Positions 28,210-45,605 of a stretch of DNA of 64,000 nucleotides are shown here, piece by piece (position 1 is the first letter of the stretch; each line of letters begins with the position of its first letter). The DNA lies in assembly GCA_003210795.1 (NCBI GenBank), contig QCUJ01000004.1, positions 1 to 64,000 of the forward strand. The letters run 5' to 3'. Below the pieces are notes generated by a model. It made no database searches and was not told where the DNA came from. It was given only the letters and a program-made list of their open reading frames with translations. The position numbers and the translations under genes were made by a program. The stretch comes from Synechococcus sp. AG-679-B05 (GTDB lineage Bacteria; Cyanobacteriota; Cyanobacteriia; PCC-6307; Cyanobiaceae).

Positions 28210-29043
<834 letters not shown>

Positions 29044-29099
29044 TTGATCTGAACTCATTTTTCATCAAACATTCAGCACCACTATTTAAGGCTTCTTAA

Positions 29100-29594
<495 letters not shown>

Positions 29595-29742: not shown

Positions 29743-30168
29743 ATGACAACGTTCATCCTTTCCCACAACCTTCAGGTTCAATCCGAAGGAGTCCCAGCAT
29801 TTATCAATCAAGAACTGGCGGAAGGTTTAAAATCTTGCTCTAATTCAATATCCAGTAGTGAAGTGATTAATCATCCACATTGGATTATTAAAATCACTTC
29901 CTCTCTATCTCATTCAGAGTTGGCTGTTGAATTAGTAAAAGCGTGGAAAGCCTATAGAGCAAAGCAGGGCCATCAAACAGACCATACAATTTTGGCTCTG
30001 GGTGGCAAGAAAGATACTGATGCAATGCCAAATGCCCCTCTTCAGAAAGATTTTTGGGGGGTTGATTTGGTCGAAGTTGACGACAAATCGGCTTTTCTTG
30101 AAGCTATAAATTGGGAGATGCTTAAGGCATCTCGCAATCCTGATAATATTTTTGAAGTTTATCTATGA
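29743..30168 (+). CDS. DUF2656-like protein of the phycobilisome locus
   Basis: 141 residues from ATG 29743 (MTTFILSHNLQVQSEGVPAF). The N-terminal MTTFxLSHNLQVQ block is the mark of a family (DUF2656) found in phycobilisome-containing cyanobacteria. It has no signal, membrane segment or cysteine. The function is unknown. It lies past the cpeA terminator and so needs its own promoter or readthrough; its 3' end faces the CpcD-like gene. Confidence 0.65.
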   Translation: MTTFILSHNLQVQSEGVPAFINQELAEGLKSCSNSISSSEVINHPHWIIKITSSLSHSELAVELVKAWKAYRAKQGHQTDHTILALGGKKDTDAMPNAPLQKDFWGVDLVEVDDKSAFLEAINWEMLKASRNPDNIFEVYL

Positions 30169-30181
30169 AATTGATTTGTTT

Positions 30182-30535
30182 TTAGCGAGCCTTGCGCCTC
30201 CCTCTTTTGCGGGCGGGTTTTTTCTCTTCGGTATAGCTCTCTTCTGCTTTTACGGAATCCTCTTCTTTGCCTTTGCTGCTCGGTTTCGTTGCTACAACTA
30301 CCTTTTCAAGTAGTTTTTGGGATTGAGCCTTCAATTTTTCGCCGGTATTTTTAGCGCTTTTTCCTGGCTTTTGGTCAGGTTGGACATCTGTAATTATGCC
30401 TCCATTTTGCATAAAAGATGTCATCCATCTGCTCATCAATCGCGTATCGAGGGAAATTGTTTGTGGAGTAGTAGGCCTCGAATCAGGCATTACACCAACT
30501 GATACCCTTAGAAAACGACCTGGGAAGGGACCCAT
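30182..30535 (-). CDS. Small CpcD-like protein with basic C-terminal tail
   Basis: 117 residues. Residues about 7-55 (RFLRVSVGV, then SLDTRLMSRWMTSFMQNGG, then IITDVQP) follow the CpcD/ApcC pattern: an edge strand, a helix and a GG-x-I-x-x-V-x-P end, as also seen at the C-termini of MpeD and CpeE in this window. The rest is a charged Lys/Glu tail ending KKPARKRGRRKAR. A role as rod-capping or accessory linker is inferred from the fold only. It is divergent from cpeY. Confidence 0.55.
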   Translation of the reverse strand: MGPFPGRFLRVSVGVMPDSRPTTPQTISLDTRLMSRWMTSFMQNGGIITDVQPDQKPGKSAKNTGEKLKAQSQKLLEKVVVATKPSSKGKEEDSVKAEESYTEEKKPARKRGRRKAR

Positions 30536-30696
30536 ATTCAGATGTTAGAACTTTATGCATTATCTTTTGCATTCCTGATATTGCAAGTCAAATAACATTT
30601 TTCTTAGCCTGGCTAGTGGTCTTTGGCTTCTAGGGCTTTGGCTGGTCATTTAGCGATTCAAGGATGTAAAATTAGTTAATAGCTTATTTGATCTTG

Positions 30697-32013
30697 ATGT
30701 CAGGCGCACTTGACAATATCCATCCTGAATTAGATCAGTCAAGCACGATTAATATTCTTTCAAAAGATGTCAATGATGTTGATAGCGAAAGCGATTATTA
30801 TATGGCTGTTTCACATTTGGTGAATTTTCCAGACTCAGTGTCGATTCAAGCATTAATGAGTTTTTTGGAATATTCATCACCAGCTAGATCTGTTCTTCTT
30901 GCACAAAGGAAGGCTGTAGAGGTTTTGGCTCGTTTAGATGCCGTCGAGGCAGAGCCTGTCATTGCCTCTTGCCTAAGAAGTTTGGATATTTATATGATAG
31001 AGAATGCAGCGTGGGCCTTGGCCGAGTTGAATTGCCAAGAGCCATCAGTACATTCTTTGATGACAGAGTTGGTGCAAGATACTAGCCAAAATCAAAGAGT
31101 CTTAATTCAGAGTCTGGCCAAATTAAATGTAACTCTAGCTATTCCAGCCATAAAAAATTTGCTGAAAAGTGATCAGCCATCGGTACGTGGTGCTGCAATC
31201 GCAGCGATGGTTCGGTTAACAGGAGAACGTTCTAACTTACAAGACCTCGGTGAACATTTATTTGATCCCAATCAGATGGTACGCCAGTGTGCGGTTCAGG
31301 ATATTATTGATTCTGATGCGTCGGAACTATTAACCGACCTATTGCAGGCACCAATTTCACCTTCATTTCGGCTAAGAGCTATTCGATCTTTCATCAACCA
31401 AAAGAAAAATTCAGAATTAAATCAACCATATATTGCAGCAATTGATCAAGTGCTACGCGATGATCCCAGAAAGATTACTGTATTGCATTCTTTCTCTGAA
31501 ATTATTCCAGTCGAGATTTTATTGCAAAATTTATTTCATCCCGACTTTAGTCGCTGCTATCTTGCAATGAATTCCTTGCTGCAGTGCTCTCCAGATGAAG
31601 TATGGCGTCATGTGGAAGAAATTTGGAATTCAAAAATTCATAATGACTACGGTGCTCATTATTTTTTGATTCAATTATTCGGATTGATGAATGGGTGGAA
31701 TCTTAAGGATAAGAATTTAATTTGCCCATTGCTTTTAGAGGCGGTTTTTGATCTCCGGCCTCAATTCAAGAAGTCACCTCCTGCAGCGTTGTTGTCGCTT
31801 TCTCGATTGTTCCCTGGTGAATGTGATCAAATATTCCAAATTTGGCTTTTACCTTCTCAGACATCATCGTGGATTTATAGATACTCTGCTCTATTGGCTA
31901 TAGAGTCCGATCACTCTTTGGCTGTCTATTCTGATCAAATCAGGGAATTGGCTTTGTCTGACCCTGCATTTTTAGTACGCTGCAAGGCTCAGAGTATTTA
32001 TGACACTCTGTAG
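30697..32013 (+). CDS. cpeY: Phycoerythrin alpha-82 bilin lyase, CpeY
   Basis: 438 residues of E/F-type HEAT repeats (RKAVEVLARLDAVEAEP, IENAAWALAELNCQEP, VRGAAIAAMVRLTGE). CpeY, helped by CpeZ, attaches phycoerythrobilin to Cys82 of CpeA in characterised strains. The C-terminal region (HNDYGAHYFLIQLFGL, YRYSALLAIESD) matches the CpeY/MpeY group. ATG 30697 (MSGALDNIHPE) is chosen; TTG 30688 is in frame upstream. It is followed by cpeZ after about 55-70 bases. Confidence 0.88.
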   Translation: MSGALDNIHPELDQSSTINILSKDVNDVDSESDYYMAVSHLVNFPDSVSIQALMSFLEYSSPARSVLLAQRKAVEVLARLDAVEAEPVIASCLRSLDIYMIENAAWALAELNCQEPSVHSLMTELVQDTSQNQRVLIQSLAKLNVTLAIPAIKNLLKSDQPSVRGAAIAAMVRLTGERSNLQDLGEHLFDPNQMVRQCAVQDIIDSDASELLTDLLQAPISPSFRLRAIRSFINQKKNSELNQPYIAAIDQVLRDDPRKITVLHSFSEIIPVEILLQNLFHPDFSRCYLAMNSLLQCSPDEVWRHVEEIWNSKIHNDYGAHYFLIQLFGLMNGWNLKDKNLICPLLLEAVFDLRPQFKKSPPAALLSLSRLFPGECDQIFQIWLLPSQTSSWIYRYSALLAIESDHSLAVYSDQIRELALSDPAFLVRCKAQSIYDTL

Positions 32014-34171: not shown

Positions 34172-34510
34172 TCAGATCGGCTCGAGTCCTTGGTAATACC
34201 CGCCGGCACGGAAGTCGTACCGTTCAACCTCATCTTCTTTGCTGCACGTTGTTTGGGAGTATTCCAGTAGTGTTTTAAAGCCGGCCGGGACAAGTTTTGG
34301 GCATAACTCACCGATGTCGTTTGCAAATGGACAGAAATACACTCCTGCCCATCGGTTCAGAAATCGACCTTGAATTTCTTCTGAAAAAACAAAACCATGA
34401 ATCTTGGCAAGCCTGAGTATTTCTTCTGGCTGTGCTTCGGCAAATTGACCTCTGAGATCGCTGTCTTCCCTAAGTACACCAATGAAACGAATGAATTCGG
34501 CTCTTGACAT
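34172..34510 (-). CDS. Nif11-domain small protein
   Basis: 112 residues. Residues 1-55 (MSRAEFIRFIGVLREDSDLR, then EEILRLAKIHGFVFSEE) match the Nif11 pattern of a helix, a D-x-x-L step, and A-x-x-x-G-F-x-F/I. The C-terminal half has cysteines but no double-glycine cleavage site, so a peptide-precursor role is doubtful. It sits between mpeV/cpeF and the fused lyase on the same strand. The function is unknown. Confidence 0.68.
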   Translation of the reverse strand: MSRAEFIRFIGVLREDSDLRGQFAEAQPEEILRLAKIHGFVFSEEIQGRFLNRWAGVYFCPFANDIGELCPKLVPAGFKTLLEYSQTTCSKEDEVERYDFRAGGYYQGLEPI

Positions 34511-35717: not shown

Positions 35718-36578
35718 TTAGAAATGAACTCCAAATGGTCGGAATGACGCTTTACCTGTGACCTTGGGTGGGTTGTGACCAGAGTATTTCTGCACTGGCA
35801 GTGAAGGTACTGGCTTCATTGTTGTTGTATACATTGATATTGCTGCTGTTGCTAGTTGATTTGTTGTTCTACTTCTTGCACCTTGTGCACTGTCGCTGAC
35901 AGCCACCTTTGTGCTGCCCAACTCTCTCATCATGTTAAATGAAGAGGTCATCATGCCAGCATAAGAATCACCTGTTCTCCAATAGGGAACTATTGATGAA
36001 CCAAACACTTCGGAATACTCAGCAGAATCCGTCAAACTATCGATCAAAGCTTCAAATCCTTCTTCAGCTTGCAGCTTGATGCTGTTCTGAATCTCTTCTT
36101 GATTCAGTGGTGCTCTACCAAGCAAGTGTTTGAAATTTAATTCAATACCCCTTTGAGGGGCGACAGAATGAAAATAGTGCTTCTTGTAAAATTCAGATTT
36201 TGCAAGACCATTCACGAAATCACGTACTGTGATTTCACCATTCATTAATCGCGCTTCTAAGGATGTGCATCTTTCTAATTCAGTCGGTGGTTGATTACCA
36301 TACACTTGGCGATACCCAGACTTGATAGTGCGTTCCAGCGCAGCTGAGTCACTGGGATGATATTCATCAAAAACTGAACCGAATGGACACTCACTATGAA
36401 GCCTAGGTCCAATGCCTAAACCCATTGACGAGCATGTGTTTCGCTTGAAGTCTGCAATAGATCCAGCAACTGTTCTTGCTACTGTATTTTTTCCTGCCTT
36501 GCTTGCTATTGAATACGAAGCTGACCTTGTTTTGTTTGTTGAGGCCATTCCAGCAGGACTGGTTTGCGTACTGAGCAT
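35718..36578 (-). CDS. mpeC: Phycoerythrin II gamma subunit / rod linker
   Basis: 286 residues. The N-terminal extension carries Cys49 (FKRNTCSSMGLGIGPR), the known phycourobilin site of MpeC. A Pfam00427-type rod linker domain follows (SGYRQVYGNQPPTELER, FVNGLAKSEFYKKHYF, GIELNFKHLLGRAP, EYSEVFGSSIVPYWR). There is no C-terminal CpcD domain. It joins phycoerythrin II discs at the distal end of the rod and absorbs blue-green light itself. It is bounded by terminators on both sides, so it has its own promoter. Confidence 0.93.
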   Translation of the reverse strand: MLSTQTSPAGMASTNKTRSASYSIASKAGKNTVARTVAGSIADFKRNTCSSMGLGIGPRLHSECPFGSVFDEYHPSDSAALERTIKSGYRQVYGNQPPTELERCTSLEARLMNGEITVRDFVNGLAKSEFYKKHYFHSVAPQRGIELNFKHLLGRAPLNQEEIQNSIKLQAEEGFEALIDSLTDSAEYSEVFGSSIVPYWRTGDSYAGMMTSSFNMMRELGSTKVAVSDSAQGARSRTTNQLATAAISMYTTTMKPVPSLPVQKYSGHNPPKVTGKASFRPFGVHF

Positions 36579-42224: not shown

Positions 42225-42959
42225 TTAAATTTTTGAAATAGAAACGATTTTGCCGCCTTGGGACAGGATCGTTTTAATTGTCGCAGACATTGATGTTTGA
42301 GCTATGACTGAACGCTGCTCAACGCGACGATTAGCACCTACCTGGCGATTTGATGTCCAACAAATTGTGATTTTATTGGAGAAGCCAACACCTTTTCGTT
42401 CAACCGTTGCTGGCGCACTATCCATACAAAGACTTTTCAGAAGCTTGGAATCCTTGGATGCATTATCATAACCAGCAAAACCTGCATCTAATGCATTAGA
42501 TCTTGCGTAGTTTAATGTTTTCCCACCAATCATGCTTTCGTTGGCCCGATTATAAGGGACTTTGTCAACACCAAAGGCGGCATAGTATTCGTCAGAATAT
42601 GTATAGCTTGTTATTTCTGCTTCATATCCTTCTTCCTGAAGAAGCCTTACATGACTCATCAGTTCAGCTTGGTTATGTGGTGGCCTTCCTAAAAGATGTT
42701 TGAAATTTAATTCAACAAACCTGTAGGGGTTATTCGTTTCTAGAAATAATTTTTTGTAGGTATCGGATTGAGCCATTGCCGTGACAAGGTCTTGTACTGA
42801 CAAGTCACCATTCATAAACAGAGCTTCAATAGATGGATTCTTGTCCAGCTCCATCAAGTGTTTATTGCCGAAGACTTGCTTGTAGGCTTGATTGATGACA
42901 TCAGCCGAATGACTGATGTCTACATTGGCTTTTGACGAAAGAGTTGTGATTTGAGACAT
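42225..42959 (-). CDS. cpeE: Phycoerythrin I rod linker CpeE
   Basis: 244 residues. Rod linker domain near 20-150 (NQAYKQVFGNKHLMELDKN, YRFVELNFKHLLGRPPHNQ, EYYAAFGVDKVPYNRAN) plus a C-terminal CpcD-type domain (NKITICWTSNRQ ... SQGGKIVSISKI). This two-domain layout fits CpeE, which joins phycoerythrin I discs. It is preceded by a terminator after mpeD. Confidence 0.85.
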   Translation of the reverse strand: MSQITTLSSKANVDISHSADVINQAYKQVFGNKHLMELDKNPSIEALFMNGDLSVQDLVTAMAQSDTYKKLFLETNNPYRFVELNFKHLLGRPPHNQAELMSHVRLLQEEGYEAEITSYTYSDEYYAAFGVDKVPYNRANESMIGGKTLNYARSNALDAGFAGYDNASKDSKLLKSLCMDSAPATVERKGVGFSNKITICWTSNRQVGANRRVEQRSVIAQTSMSATIKTILSQGGKIVSISKI

Positions 42960-43028: not shown

Positions 43029-44678
43029 TTACATCACTTCTGTAATTGACGTGATTGTGCCACCCCGAGCATGAATGTATTTCATTTGGCTGGACATATC
43101 TTTGCCAGAAACAAGGTATGTGTTGCCTGCTGTTCTTTGTCGTGTTCTTGCTGACTGAGTCGATACAGTGATTCGGAATCGCTTCGTTGTTTGATCTGCC
43201 GATCCCGATTGAGTACCTGTACGATTAATTCTGGTTGATGTTTTGCTCCATCCACTGGGCACACTATTTGTAGCCACCGATCTCACGAGGCTGGATCCGG
43301 TCAGTACGGTATCGCTTGCAGCGAAGCCTTCTGCCAAGCTGAGATGTCTGTTGAACGATACCTGAGCTCGACCATTTTCGCTAAGGATGCGAGCATAAGG
43401 AACAGTATCCTCTCCATAAACATTTTGATATTCACTACTATCTACATAGCTGCTGATTTCAGCCTCATACCCACCTTCTGCCAAGATCTTGGTGTGTTCA
43501 CTGATTTCTGCCTGAGATTGAGGCGCTCTACCGAGAAAATGTTTGAAATTCAGTTCAATGAATCGATACGGCGCATTGCTTTCAAAGAATCTTCTCTTGT
43601 ATTCGGCAGACAGTCCGATGGCACGAACCAGTTCTCTTGTGCTTAAAAATCCTTCTGCATACTTGCTTTCTGCACTGATAGCCCTTTCAAATTCCATCAG
43701 ATGGGGGTTGCCCATCACGTGCTTGTAGGTTGCGCGGATTAGAGCATTGATTTGATCCGCTGTATCACCAGGGCAGCGTTGGTATTTTTCCTGCTCTCTT
43801 TGCGCTAATCCGAATGTTACATATGTATCGCCTCTCAGTGGGCCAGAATCTTTCCCACTTGTAACACCAGGTGCTTTTGCAGCGAATTTTGTTGAGGTAA
43901 TACTTGCTTGTGTTGGTGCAAAGCTGAAGGCTTGGCTTGGAACACTAATTCTTGGGGCAACACCACTAGCAAGGTTTCTTGTTAGTGCTGGGCTACCACC
44001 CCTCGCACTATCACTTCCTGCAAAGCTTCTGGAAAGAGCTGCCAACAGCGGAAATGCCGCTGTTGATAGGTCAGCTGGAGAATTCCAAGAGCGTGCGTAT
44101 GGAACAACATCGCTCCCAAAAACTTCTAAGTACTCTGCGGAGTCGACAATGCTGTCAACGACTGTGTCATATCCACTGGATGACAAGAGCTCAATCTTTT
44201 TGGAAACCTCACCCTGATTCTCTGGTGCGCGACCCAGCAAGTGCTTGAAATTCATTTCAATGCCGCGTTGAGGGGCAACACTTTCAAAGAATCTCTTCTT
44301 GTAAAAACTTGATTTGGCAAGCCCTTTAACGAATTCCCTTACTGTTAAGCGACCATCTTTTAGTTGAGCTTCTAGTTCTGTGCAACGCTCGAAATCCATC
44401 ACATGAGCATTACCAAAGACTTGTCGGTATGCAGCATTGATCGTTGTCGCAAGCGCAGAAGCGTCATCAGGGCTGTAGCACTCACTTGTCACCCTATGGG
44501 GACAGTCGCTGTGGGATCGTGGCCCCACACCAATCGCCATTTGGTCACAGGATTGCTTTAAAAATTCTCCGGGTGTTAAAGCTGCCTTTTTCTCCTTTTT
44601 ACCTTTATGTTGAAACTGAACTGGTTGATCCCATTTCTTTGTCGCACCGAACACTTGAACTTGCTGATTGTTAGACAT
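43029..44678 (-). CDS. mpeD: Two-domain phycoerythrin linker MpeD
   Basis: 549 residues. Residues 35-200 resemble MpeC, including Cys44 in FLKQSCDQMAIGVGPR at the place of the MpeC bilin cysteine. A second rod linker domain near 305-450 resembles CpeE (ATYKHVMGNPHLMEFERA, YRFIELNFKHFLGRAPQSQ). A CpcD-type domain ends the protein (KRFRITVST ... HARGGTITSITEV). A hybrid of phycoerythrin II and I linkers fits the junction of PEI and PEII discs. The name follows marine Synechococcus usage and is less certain than the domain reading. Confidence 0.8.
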   Translation of the reverse strand: MSNNQQVQVFGATKKWDQPVQFQHKGKKEKKAALTPGEFLKQSCDQMAIGVGPRSHSDCPHRVTSECYSPDDASALATTINAAYRQVFGNAHVMDFERCTELEAQLKDGRLTVREFVKGLAKSSFYKKRFFESVAPQRGIEMNFKHLLGRAPENQGEVSKKIELLSSSGYDTVVDSIVDSAEYLEVFGSDVVPYARSWNSPADLSTAAFPLLAALSRSFAGSDSARGGSPALTRNLASGVAPRISVPSQAFSFAPTQASITSTKFAAKAPGVTSGKDSGPLRGDTYVTFGLAQREQEKYQRCPGDTADQINALIRATYKHVMGNPHLMEFERAISAESKYAEGFLSTRELVRAIGLSAEYKRRFFESNAPYRFIELNFKHFLGRAPQSQAEISEHTKILAEGGYEAEISSYVDSSEYQNVYGEDTVPYARILSENGRAQVSFNRHLSLAEGFAASDTVLTGSSLVRSVATNSVPSGWSKTSTRINRTGTQSGSADQTTKRFRITVSTQSARTRQRTAGNTYLVSGKDMSSQMKYIHARGGTITSITEVM

Positions 44679-44720: not shown

Positions 44721-45605
44721 TTAGTTCACAGGAGTGATGCTTGCTATTTTTCCACCTTCCTTGTGAATTCTTTTGAATTGTTCGGAAAGTTTATCAAATG
44801 GAACGTAGAAGATTCTATTACTTCTTGTGTATCTAGAAATTCTACGAACATTGTTTGCGCTGTAGGCAGTGACTTCGACTCGGTATGTAATTCCTTGCTC
44901 TCCAGCACCCACGCCCAATCTTGCTGGTGCATCCTGCAAGTTTGTTGCTGGTCGGAAGCTCCATCCCTGGGTTTCAGTGGATGATGGTGGAATGACAGCT
45001 AATGGTTTGTTTTGGTAAACAGCACCACCTAATTTGCTCTTGATACCTGAAAGATCACCTTTAAGGCTGCTGCTGCTATTACCTCGAAGTAGCTGAAAAC
45101 TCCAGGTAAATTCCTGCATTGTTCCGCAGCTTTCTGTCTTCCATCCTCTTTGGTATGGAACCACCCATTCACCAAAGTAATTTTGATATTCTTCGGAATC
45201 GAGGAAGCTATCAATATCAGCTTCATAGCCTTGGCTATCGAGTCTTTCTGAATGAGCTCTCATTTCTTCAAAATCTACGGGAGCTCTTCCAAGTAGATGT
45301 CTGAACGTCAATTCAATGTATCGATATCTGGCACAACTCTCAAAAAATCTGCTTCGATAAAGGTCGCTTTTTGCCAATCTCCTAATGAACTCTCTGACAC
45401 TGATCTCTCCCAGTTTGAACTGAGACTCTGAGACAATTTGTCGCTCGCTGTCCATGACGTAAGCGTTACCAAGAACTTGCTTGTACAAAGAGCGAATGAT
45501 TTCCTCTTTGTTGGCGTCAGTTGCTCCTGGCAAGAGTTCGACAGGTGCTTCGCTGTCCTGAGAGAAGCGTTCGACCCCAAGTAGCGAGGCAGGACCGAAG
45601 GGCAT
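44721..45605 (-). CDS. cpeC: Phycoerythrin I-phycocyanin rod linker CpeC
   Basis: 294 residues beginning MPFGPASLLGVERFSQ, the start shared by CpcC/CpeC linkers. A rod linker domain (RSLYKQVLGNAYVMDSERQ, YRYIELTFRHLLGRAPVDF, YQNYFGEWVVPYQRG) is followed by a CpcD-type domain (GITYRVEVTAYSAN ... HKEGGKIASITPVN). It is expected to join phycoerythrin I to phycocyanin. It lies 42 bases upstream of mpeD in the same direction. Confidence 0.87.
   Translation of the reverse strand: MPFGPASLLGVERFSQDSEAPVELLPGATDANKEEIIRSLYKQVLGNAYVMDSERQIVSESQFKLGEISVREFIRRLAKSDLYRSRFFESCARYRYIELTFRHLLGRAPVDFEEMRAHSERLDSQGYEADIDSFLDSEEYQNYFGEWVVPYQRGWKTESCGTMQEFTWSFQLLRGNSSSSLKGDLSGIKSKLGGAVYQNKPLAVIPPSSTETQGWSFRPATNLQDAPARLGVGAGEQGITYRVEVTAYSANNVRRISRYTRSNRIFYVPFDKLSEQFKRIHKEGGKIASITPVN

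Follow-up and report, generated by a model that had tools for sequence, protein, structure and literature searches.

CpcD is reported to cap phycobilisome rods and so to stop their growth, and large FNR has been placed at the core-distal ends of rods (PMC10696076). In published structures, a rod linker attaches to a hexamer through its CpcD-like part in much the way that free CpcD attaches to the outermost hexamer (PMC9205905), and the linker domain of FNR has its strands and helix in the same order as the Unk11 model presented below (PMC6479007). Six et al. (2007; PMC2246261) reported that cpcC and cpcD are both absent from every phycoerythrin (PE)-containing strain. They also described unk11, a conserved hypothetical gene of the PE-I region which adjoins unk12, is very variable, notably in length and at its 3' end, and occurs in all nine PE-containing strains and only in these. 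The available text of that paper gives unk11 no domain or function; Unk11 was not identified in gel bands, ApcC and CpcD being likewise undetectable in those conditions. A Red Sea metatranscriptome (PMC5069720) placed a start site of the CC9605 unk11 gene at position 425184, on the reverse strand. In activity it ranked there with the start sites of cpeBA, mpeBA and rpcBA, which lead the phycobilisome island.

The gene described here is this unk11. The first-pass annotation had held that a separate small linker at this place would be new; that part falls, since the gene has been on record since 2007. Three other parts of its interpretation are supported: a CpcD-like domain, no rod-linker domain attached, and PE-type genomes of the genus without cpcD; the rod-cap or accessory-linker role is, as in that annotation, a candidate one. 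What we add, the CpcD-like assignment and the conserved basic tail, seems new. We found no domain or linker assignment for unk11 in the literature on this gene, which was covered in part, some papers being available in part; nor did the literature on capping of PE rods, on proteins like CpcD and on the structure of marine phycobilisomes, also covered in part, visibly offer a CpcD-like reading of it. PE-containing marine Synechococcus are major ocean phototrophs and lack cpcD. For a gene with strong transcription that has carried the label unknown since 2007, the assignment provides a concrete structural identity, and it makes rod termination directly testable.

The unk11 gene and its surroundings

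The window is the whole stretch of DNA analysed, 64,000 nucleotides of Synechococcus sp. AG-679-B05, from an assembly of 1.88 Mb with a completeness of 77%. The name unk11 was given on the basis of position and neighbours, as in PMC2246261. The gene sits downstream of cpeBA, among the following features:

28447..29594, forward strand: cpeBA, phycoerythrin I subunits (NCBIfam CpeB and CpeA, both over cut-off; the cpeB start at 28447 is a GTG taken from the ORF tool)
29743..30168, forward strand: unk12 (DUF2656, PF10847; Pfam E 3.7e-35), convergent with unk11 and adjacent to it in 68/68 loci
30182..30535, reverse strand: unk11, 117 aa, CpcD-like domain plus basic tail (from the ORF, homologues and gene order)
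30185..30376, reverse strand: residues 54-117 of Unk11, Lys/Glu-rich tail with a predicted helix (62-83), a disordered stretch and an Arg/Lys cluster
30377..30535, reverse strand: residues 1-53 of Unk11, divergent CpcD-like domain (hhalign with controls; AlphaFold and Foldseek)
30697..32013, forward strand: cpeY-type lyase gene, divergent from unk11 (CpeY model E 2.2e-90; 303 bits, below the model's cut-off of 600; start taken at an ATG, the ORF listing beginning at a TTG at 30688)

The open reading frame proposed earlier, 117 codons from an ATG on the minus strand, is borne out by homologues, conserved order and a strong start site, and the forecast of a 13-kDa basic protein agrees with a predicted mass of 13.05 kDa and pI of 10.3. 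Only three codons separate the ATG from the upstream in-frame stop, so that the start is well fixed. Among homologues with E<=5.2e-9, one has 96% identity (a copy of this identity is carried by Synechococcus sp. AG-679-D13) and others have 34-44%. The arrangement of unk12 forward, unk11 reverse and cpeY forward recurs in all 68 phycobilisome-region loci, which are 68 of the 72 profile-match loci examined; the remaining four hold the second copy of genome G147 (L015), two FNR-type genes (L098 and L099) and a CpcD gene (L100). In genome G216, presumably CC9605 given the matching unk11 coordinates, the ORF starts at 425167, 17 bases past the published start site. The homologues, the fixed gene order and this strong start site make unk11 more than a chance reading frame. 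Substitution rates are too weak to add much: the window gene compared with that of L002 gave dN 0.022 and dS 0.053, which is weak evidence, and in seven further pairs, over the first domain, dS exceeded dN in five and was zero in two.

Several other observations were made around the gene. The hexanucleotide TAAGAA, noted in the window (30601-30606, minus strand) and upstream of unk11 among L001-L017, lies 69-72 bases before the unk11 ATG in 16 of the 21 upstream regions listed; the flanking sequence varies, and the motif may be a promoter element or an activator site, either for unk11 or for cpeY on the other side. The window has two occurrences of GGCTAAGAAA and no more, one ahead of cpeB and the other ahead of unk11; as a general promoter element shared with cpeB it was rejected, having no fixed place in 19 other cpeB regions. 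Genome G147 carries two unk11 copies, L178:8916-9233 (G147:C1:818415-818732, minus strand) and L076:4159-4431, one in the phycobilisome region and the other far away; phmmer found no phycobilisome gene of the window within 9 kb of the far copy. In the PE-II region, a Nif11-domain protein is encoded at 34172-34510 on the minus strand (E 7.5e-8), with the same motif, PF07862, as reported for Unk7 and Unk8 (PMC2246261). An AlphaFold model of Unk12 was set aside (mean pLDDT 45).

A divergent CpcD-like domain followed by a basic tail

Across 72 distinct Unk11 sequences, about 53 residues align without gaps. By hhalign, Unk11 matched an alignment of 27 CpcD domains at 97.0% (E 8.9e-11, 48 columns), the kinship extending over the whole domain. 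These 27 rows come from rod linkers, CpcD, ApcC and FNR, and four of those labelled FNR (G009, G037, G077, G092) belong instead to further proteins of linker or CpcC type that end in CpcD, G009 and G077 being relabelled from reading and G037 and G092 by likeness. The controls all scored low: the best of 200 column-shuffled CpcD alignments gave 5.8%, the reversed CpcD alignment 0.12%, and the best of 84 slices of other families from the same loci 3.5%, the slices being drawn from those of 12 families tried that had enough members. The 57 sequences outside the window-like groups again gave 97.0%. Small subsets scored 37.9% (the window pair), 1.25% (five high-PUB-like sequences) and 4.98% (four sequences from L012-L016); with the window pair at only 37.9%, the CpcD assignment of the window protein rests on its clear orthology to the other members.

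A profile of Unk11 built without any CpcD matched 24 of 338 class genomes at E<=0.001, and seven of these genomes belong to other families. Five of the seven matches there are proteins over the Pfam CpcD cut-off, and we read the other two as large FNR with a CpcD-like domain. Within the family, the profile also matches FNR CpcD-like domains (G092, E 0.001; G009, E 0.0026). Against PDB sequences it gave four matches at E<=10, none significant, headed by dynein (E 0.49) and then two FNR CpcD-like domains (0.64 and 1.1).

The window Unk11 has no Pfam CpcD match at E<=1, whereas 8 of 27 single members scanned do, three in a set of 17 (best 0.058) and five in a set of ten (best overall 0.0045); the PF01383 gathering cut-off of 27 bits is listed as reached by none of the 27, the 17-member scan having reported E-values only. 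Among the ten, which are diverged members, two have a family other than CpcD as best match (E 0.0059 and 0.013) and four have no family. Searched by itself, the window protein had no useful match in Pfam, NCBIfam or PHROGs; a Pfam SPATIAL match (E 0.074) was discarded, as it spans residues 38-113, mostly low-complexity tail.

AlphaFold, run blind on two near-identical rows, predicts strands at 8-15 and 25-30, a helix at 31-43, a strand at 46-53, a further helix at 62-83 and a disordered end, with modest confidence (mean pLDDT 63.5, pTM 0.41). The strand-strand-helix-strand order is that of the CpcD fold. In Foldseek, every one of the 34 best PDB matches is to a phycobilisome or allophycocyanin entry, though individually the matches are weak (E 0.23 or more, none at 0.001). 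VIA-align places phycobilisome chains at ranks 1-10 (best Z 6.5, 3.2 Å over 50 residues), and designed Top7-type proteins score Z 4.9-5.6, the 5.6 coming directly after the phycobilisome chains, so that a Z of 5-6 is no proof by itself. Residues 1-53 of Unk11 are thus a highly divergent CpcD-like domain. The first-pass annotation had assigned the first 55 residues in this way and had proposed structure prediction against CpcD as a check; hhalign, Foldseek and the out-of-family CpcD matches agree with it.

The Lys/Glu-rich tail closing in an Arg/Lys cluster, described earlier for the window protein, is also there. Unk11 proteins as assigned have 84-148 aa and a pI of 9.7-12.0. The length of the tail varies; its basic character is conserved, the last 15 residues holding five to nine Lys/Arg in all 72 sequences, and a simple pattern for a basic end fits 65 of the 72. 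Among four CpcD proteins read from picocyanobacterial relatives that lack PE-type CpeA, three likewise finish with a few basic residues, which makes the Unk11 tail an enlarged version of a CpcD feature.

Distribution among genomes and relation to cpcD

We found unk11 in 72 of 90 genomes with PE-type CpeA and in none of the 210 other genomes sampled. PE type was defined by a CpeA match at E<=1e-83 and cpcD by a score >100 bits, both cut-offs being set after viewing the lists, which were transcribed by hand, and the 210 include many genomes whose CpeA has diverged further (one at 3.1e-83). With the single protein as query, 65 of 300 family genomes had a match at E<=0.1, and the weaker of these matches are mostly due to chance. 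A 17-row profile (A1) also matched 65 of the 300, at E<=0.01, and 61 of these were counted as Unk11; set aside were G009 (FNR-like), G049 (a CpcD gene) and, both unread, G275 (a frame of 401 aa of the G009 kind) and G160 (18 aa with stops). Another 11 diverged copies were added from cpeA neighbourhoods. For the 18 PE genomes counted without unk11, 14 were read near cpeA and six gaps were read in all frames; G133, G176 and G188 were counted as lacking the gene unread, G049 was unread at cpeA, and absence is less sure in G083 and G084 because no cpeY lies near the cpeA copy read. The set of 72 sequences excludes L110 (ambiguous letters) and L098-L100. Two scans of viral contigs gave no relative of unk11.

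It had been suggested that marine strains lack a classical cpcD, and none of the 23 PE-type genomes of the genus has one, in agreement with Six et al. for PE-containing strains. The idea that unk11 and cpcD strictly exclude each other was tested and rejected: seven of the 72 unk11 genomes have both and 17 PE genomes have neither, so unk11 is not a strict stand-in for cpcD. In two places cpcD seems split into two frames (G140:C1:2610043-2610272 and G127:C29:31071-31294); G140 also has unk11.

Possible roles and comparison with known systems

The following linkers are encoded in the window:

35718-36578: linker beside mpeBA; PF00427 present, CpcD domain not found
42225-42959: CpeE-type linker; C-terminal CpcD domain, Pfam E 7.4e-4 (below cut-off)
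43029-44678: MpeD-type linker; CpcD domain, E 1.4e-8
44721-45605: CpeC-type linker; CpcD domain, E 8e-18

The CpcD domains to which Unk11 had been likened, in CpeC, CpeE and MpeD, are therefore real, that of CpeE lying below the cut-off, and Pfam finds no PF00427 rod-linker domain in Unk11, as had been stated.

The best explanation, to which we give a probability of about 0.55, is that Unk11 serves PE rods as a stand-alone linker, of a capping or accessory kind. Computation shows how the domain is related and folded, that the gene goes with PE genes and that the tail keeps its basic character; that the protein is part of the phycobilisome, that it sits at the end of the rod and what its tail does we infer. 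The CpcD-like domain would occupy the central opening of a PE hexamer where the CpcD domain of a further rod linker is absent, Unk11 would thereby close or steady the outer end of the PE rod, and the basic tail might grip the rod or a neighbouring part. With no CpcD domain in the linker beside mpeBA, there is a place left to fill, and cpcD is missing from the PE-type relatives in this genus (0/23); a CpcD-like protein that stands alone and goes with PE genes would suit this place. By analogy, stand-alone CpcD-like genes in the PE-type linker clusters of G049, G428 and G570 would support the role. In distant cyanobacteria, G428 (L174:8303-9228) and G570 (L173:7833-8270), such clusters have a stand-alone CpcD-domain gene beside cpeS, and in G049, a PE genome where the profile finds no unk11, a small CpcD gene lies between a rod linker and cpeS. 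We counted in favour the kinship, Foldseek, the PE-only distribution, the lack of cpcD and the strong start site, and against it the candidate status of the phycobilisome location, the low hhalign values of the three subsets, the modest AlphaFold confidence and the missing gel-band identification. Such a cap is evidently not needed by all PE genomes, since seven have both genes and 17 neither.

A possible, if unlikely, alternative is a docking adaptor resembling large FNR, whose CpcD-like domain would serve only as an anchor at rod ends and whose tail would do the work by linking the antenna with something acidic, for instance the membrane surface, a second phycobilisome, a protein or RNA. There is a precedent in large FNR itself, which couples a CpcD-like domain with a different function and binds rods at their core-distal ends (PMC10696076, PMC6479007), and a basic end kept in 72/72 sequences of varying tail length would suit such a task; the tail holds no conserved partner domain, however, and three of four picocyanobacterial CpcD proteins also end basic, so that a basic tail needs no separate job. 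We are doubtful, too, of a stronger form of the linker reading, in which Unk11 is a dedicated picocyanobacterial PE-rod terminator, a fast-evolving offshoot of CpcD that replaced CpcD when PE rods were acquired and sets rod length; its tail would then bind outside the rod, to neighbouring rods, antennae or the membrane.

More improbable is an assembly factor that would act with Unk12 and CpeY, holding PE subunits or hexamers while chromophores are attached or rods are built, and would not be a lasting part of the rod. It would account for the fixed position between unk12 and cpeY (68/68) and for six PE-containing loci of genus g8 (L120-L125) in which neither unk12 nor unk11 was found between cpeA and cpeY. 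Against it, the start site matches those of the structural genes in activity (PMC5069720), which suggests that the product is made in structural quantity, and six genomes (L101-L105, L112) retain unk12 and cpeY with unk11 undetectable. The lack of both genes in L120-L125 is, as an observation in its own right, a hint of joint retention or loss.

That the CpcD resemblance is convergent or an artefact, and the job of the protein unrelated to rods, we regard as very improbable: the Pfam cut-off reached by 0/27 members, dynein as best PDB sequence match and Top7-type designs close behind the phycobilisome chains (Z 5.6 against 6.5) are outweighed by shuffled, reversed and real-protein controls that are all low, out-of-family matches that are CpcD-domain proteins, and a blind fold search that returns 34 consecutive phycobilisome or allophycocyanin entries.

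As a capping or accessory linker, Unk11 stands nearest to CpcD (PF01383), with which it shares a stand-alone CpcD-type domain, no PF00427 and, for three of four CpcD proteins, a basic end. It differs in being very divergent, in being encoded with the PE-I genes, in its longer tail and in a start, MGP, that is constant in nearly all copies; in keeping with this, it does not reach the curated PF01383 cut-off, and a profile of five CpcD sequences from the same bacterial family found no match in G000 at E<=1e-8. Large FNR resembles it in the domain (hhalign 93.1% against a subgroup in which three of seven rows are FNR) and in the order of strands and helix; unlike large FNR, the 117-aa Unk11 has none of the FNR enzyme domains, no FAD- or NAD(P)-binding family being found by Pfam at E<=1. 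The genes of G428, G570 and G049 likewise encode small CpcD-domain proteins among PE-type rod linkers, and the G428 and G570 copies have charged tails, as Unk11 does; these two copies exceed the Pfam cut-off, unlike Unk11, and all three genes adjoin linker genes and cpeS, whereas unk11 lies between unk12 and cpeY. That place beside cpeY in the PE-I region, with unk12 as neighbour and a distribution restricted to PE genomes, identifies the gene with the unk11 of Six et al. (2007), to whose description a CpcD-like domain and a conserved basic tail are added here.
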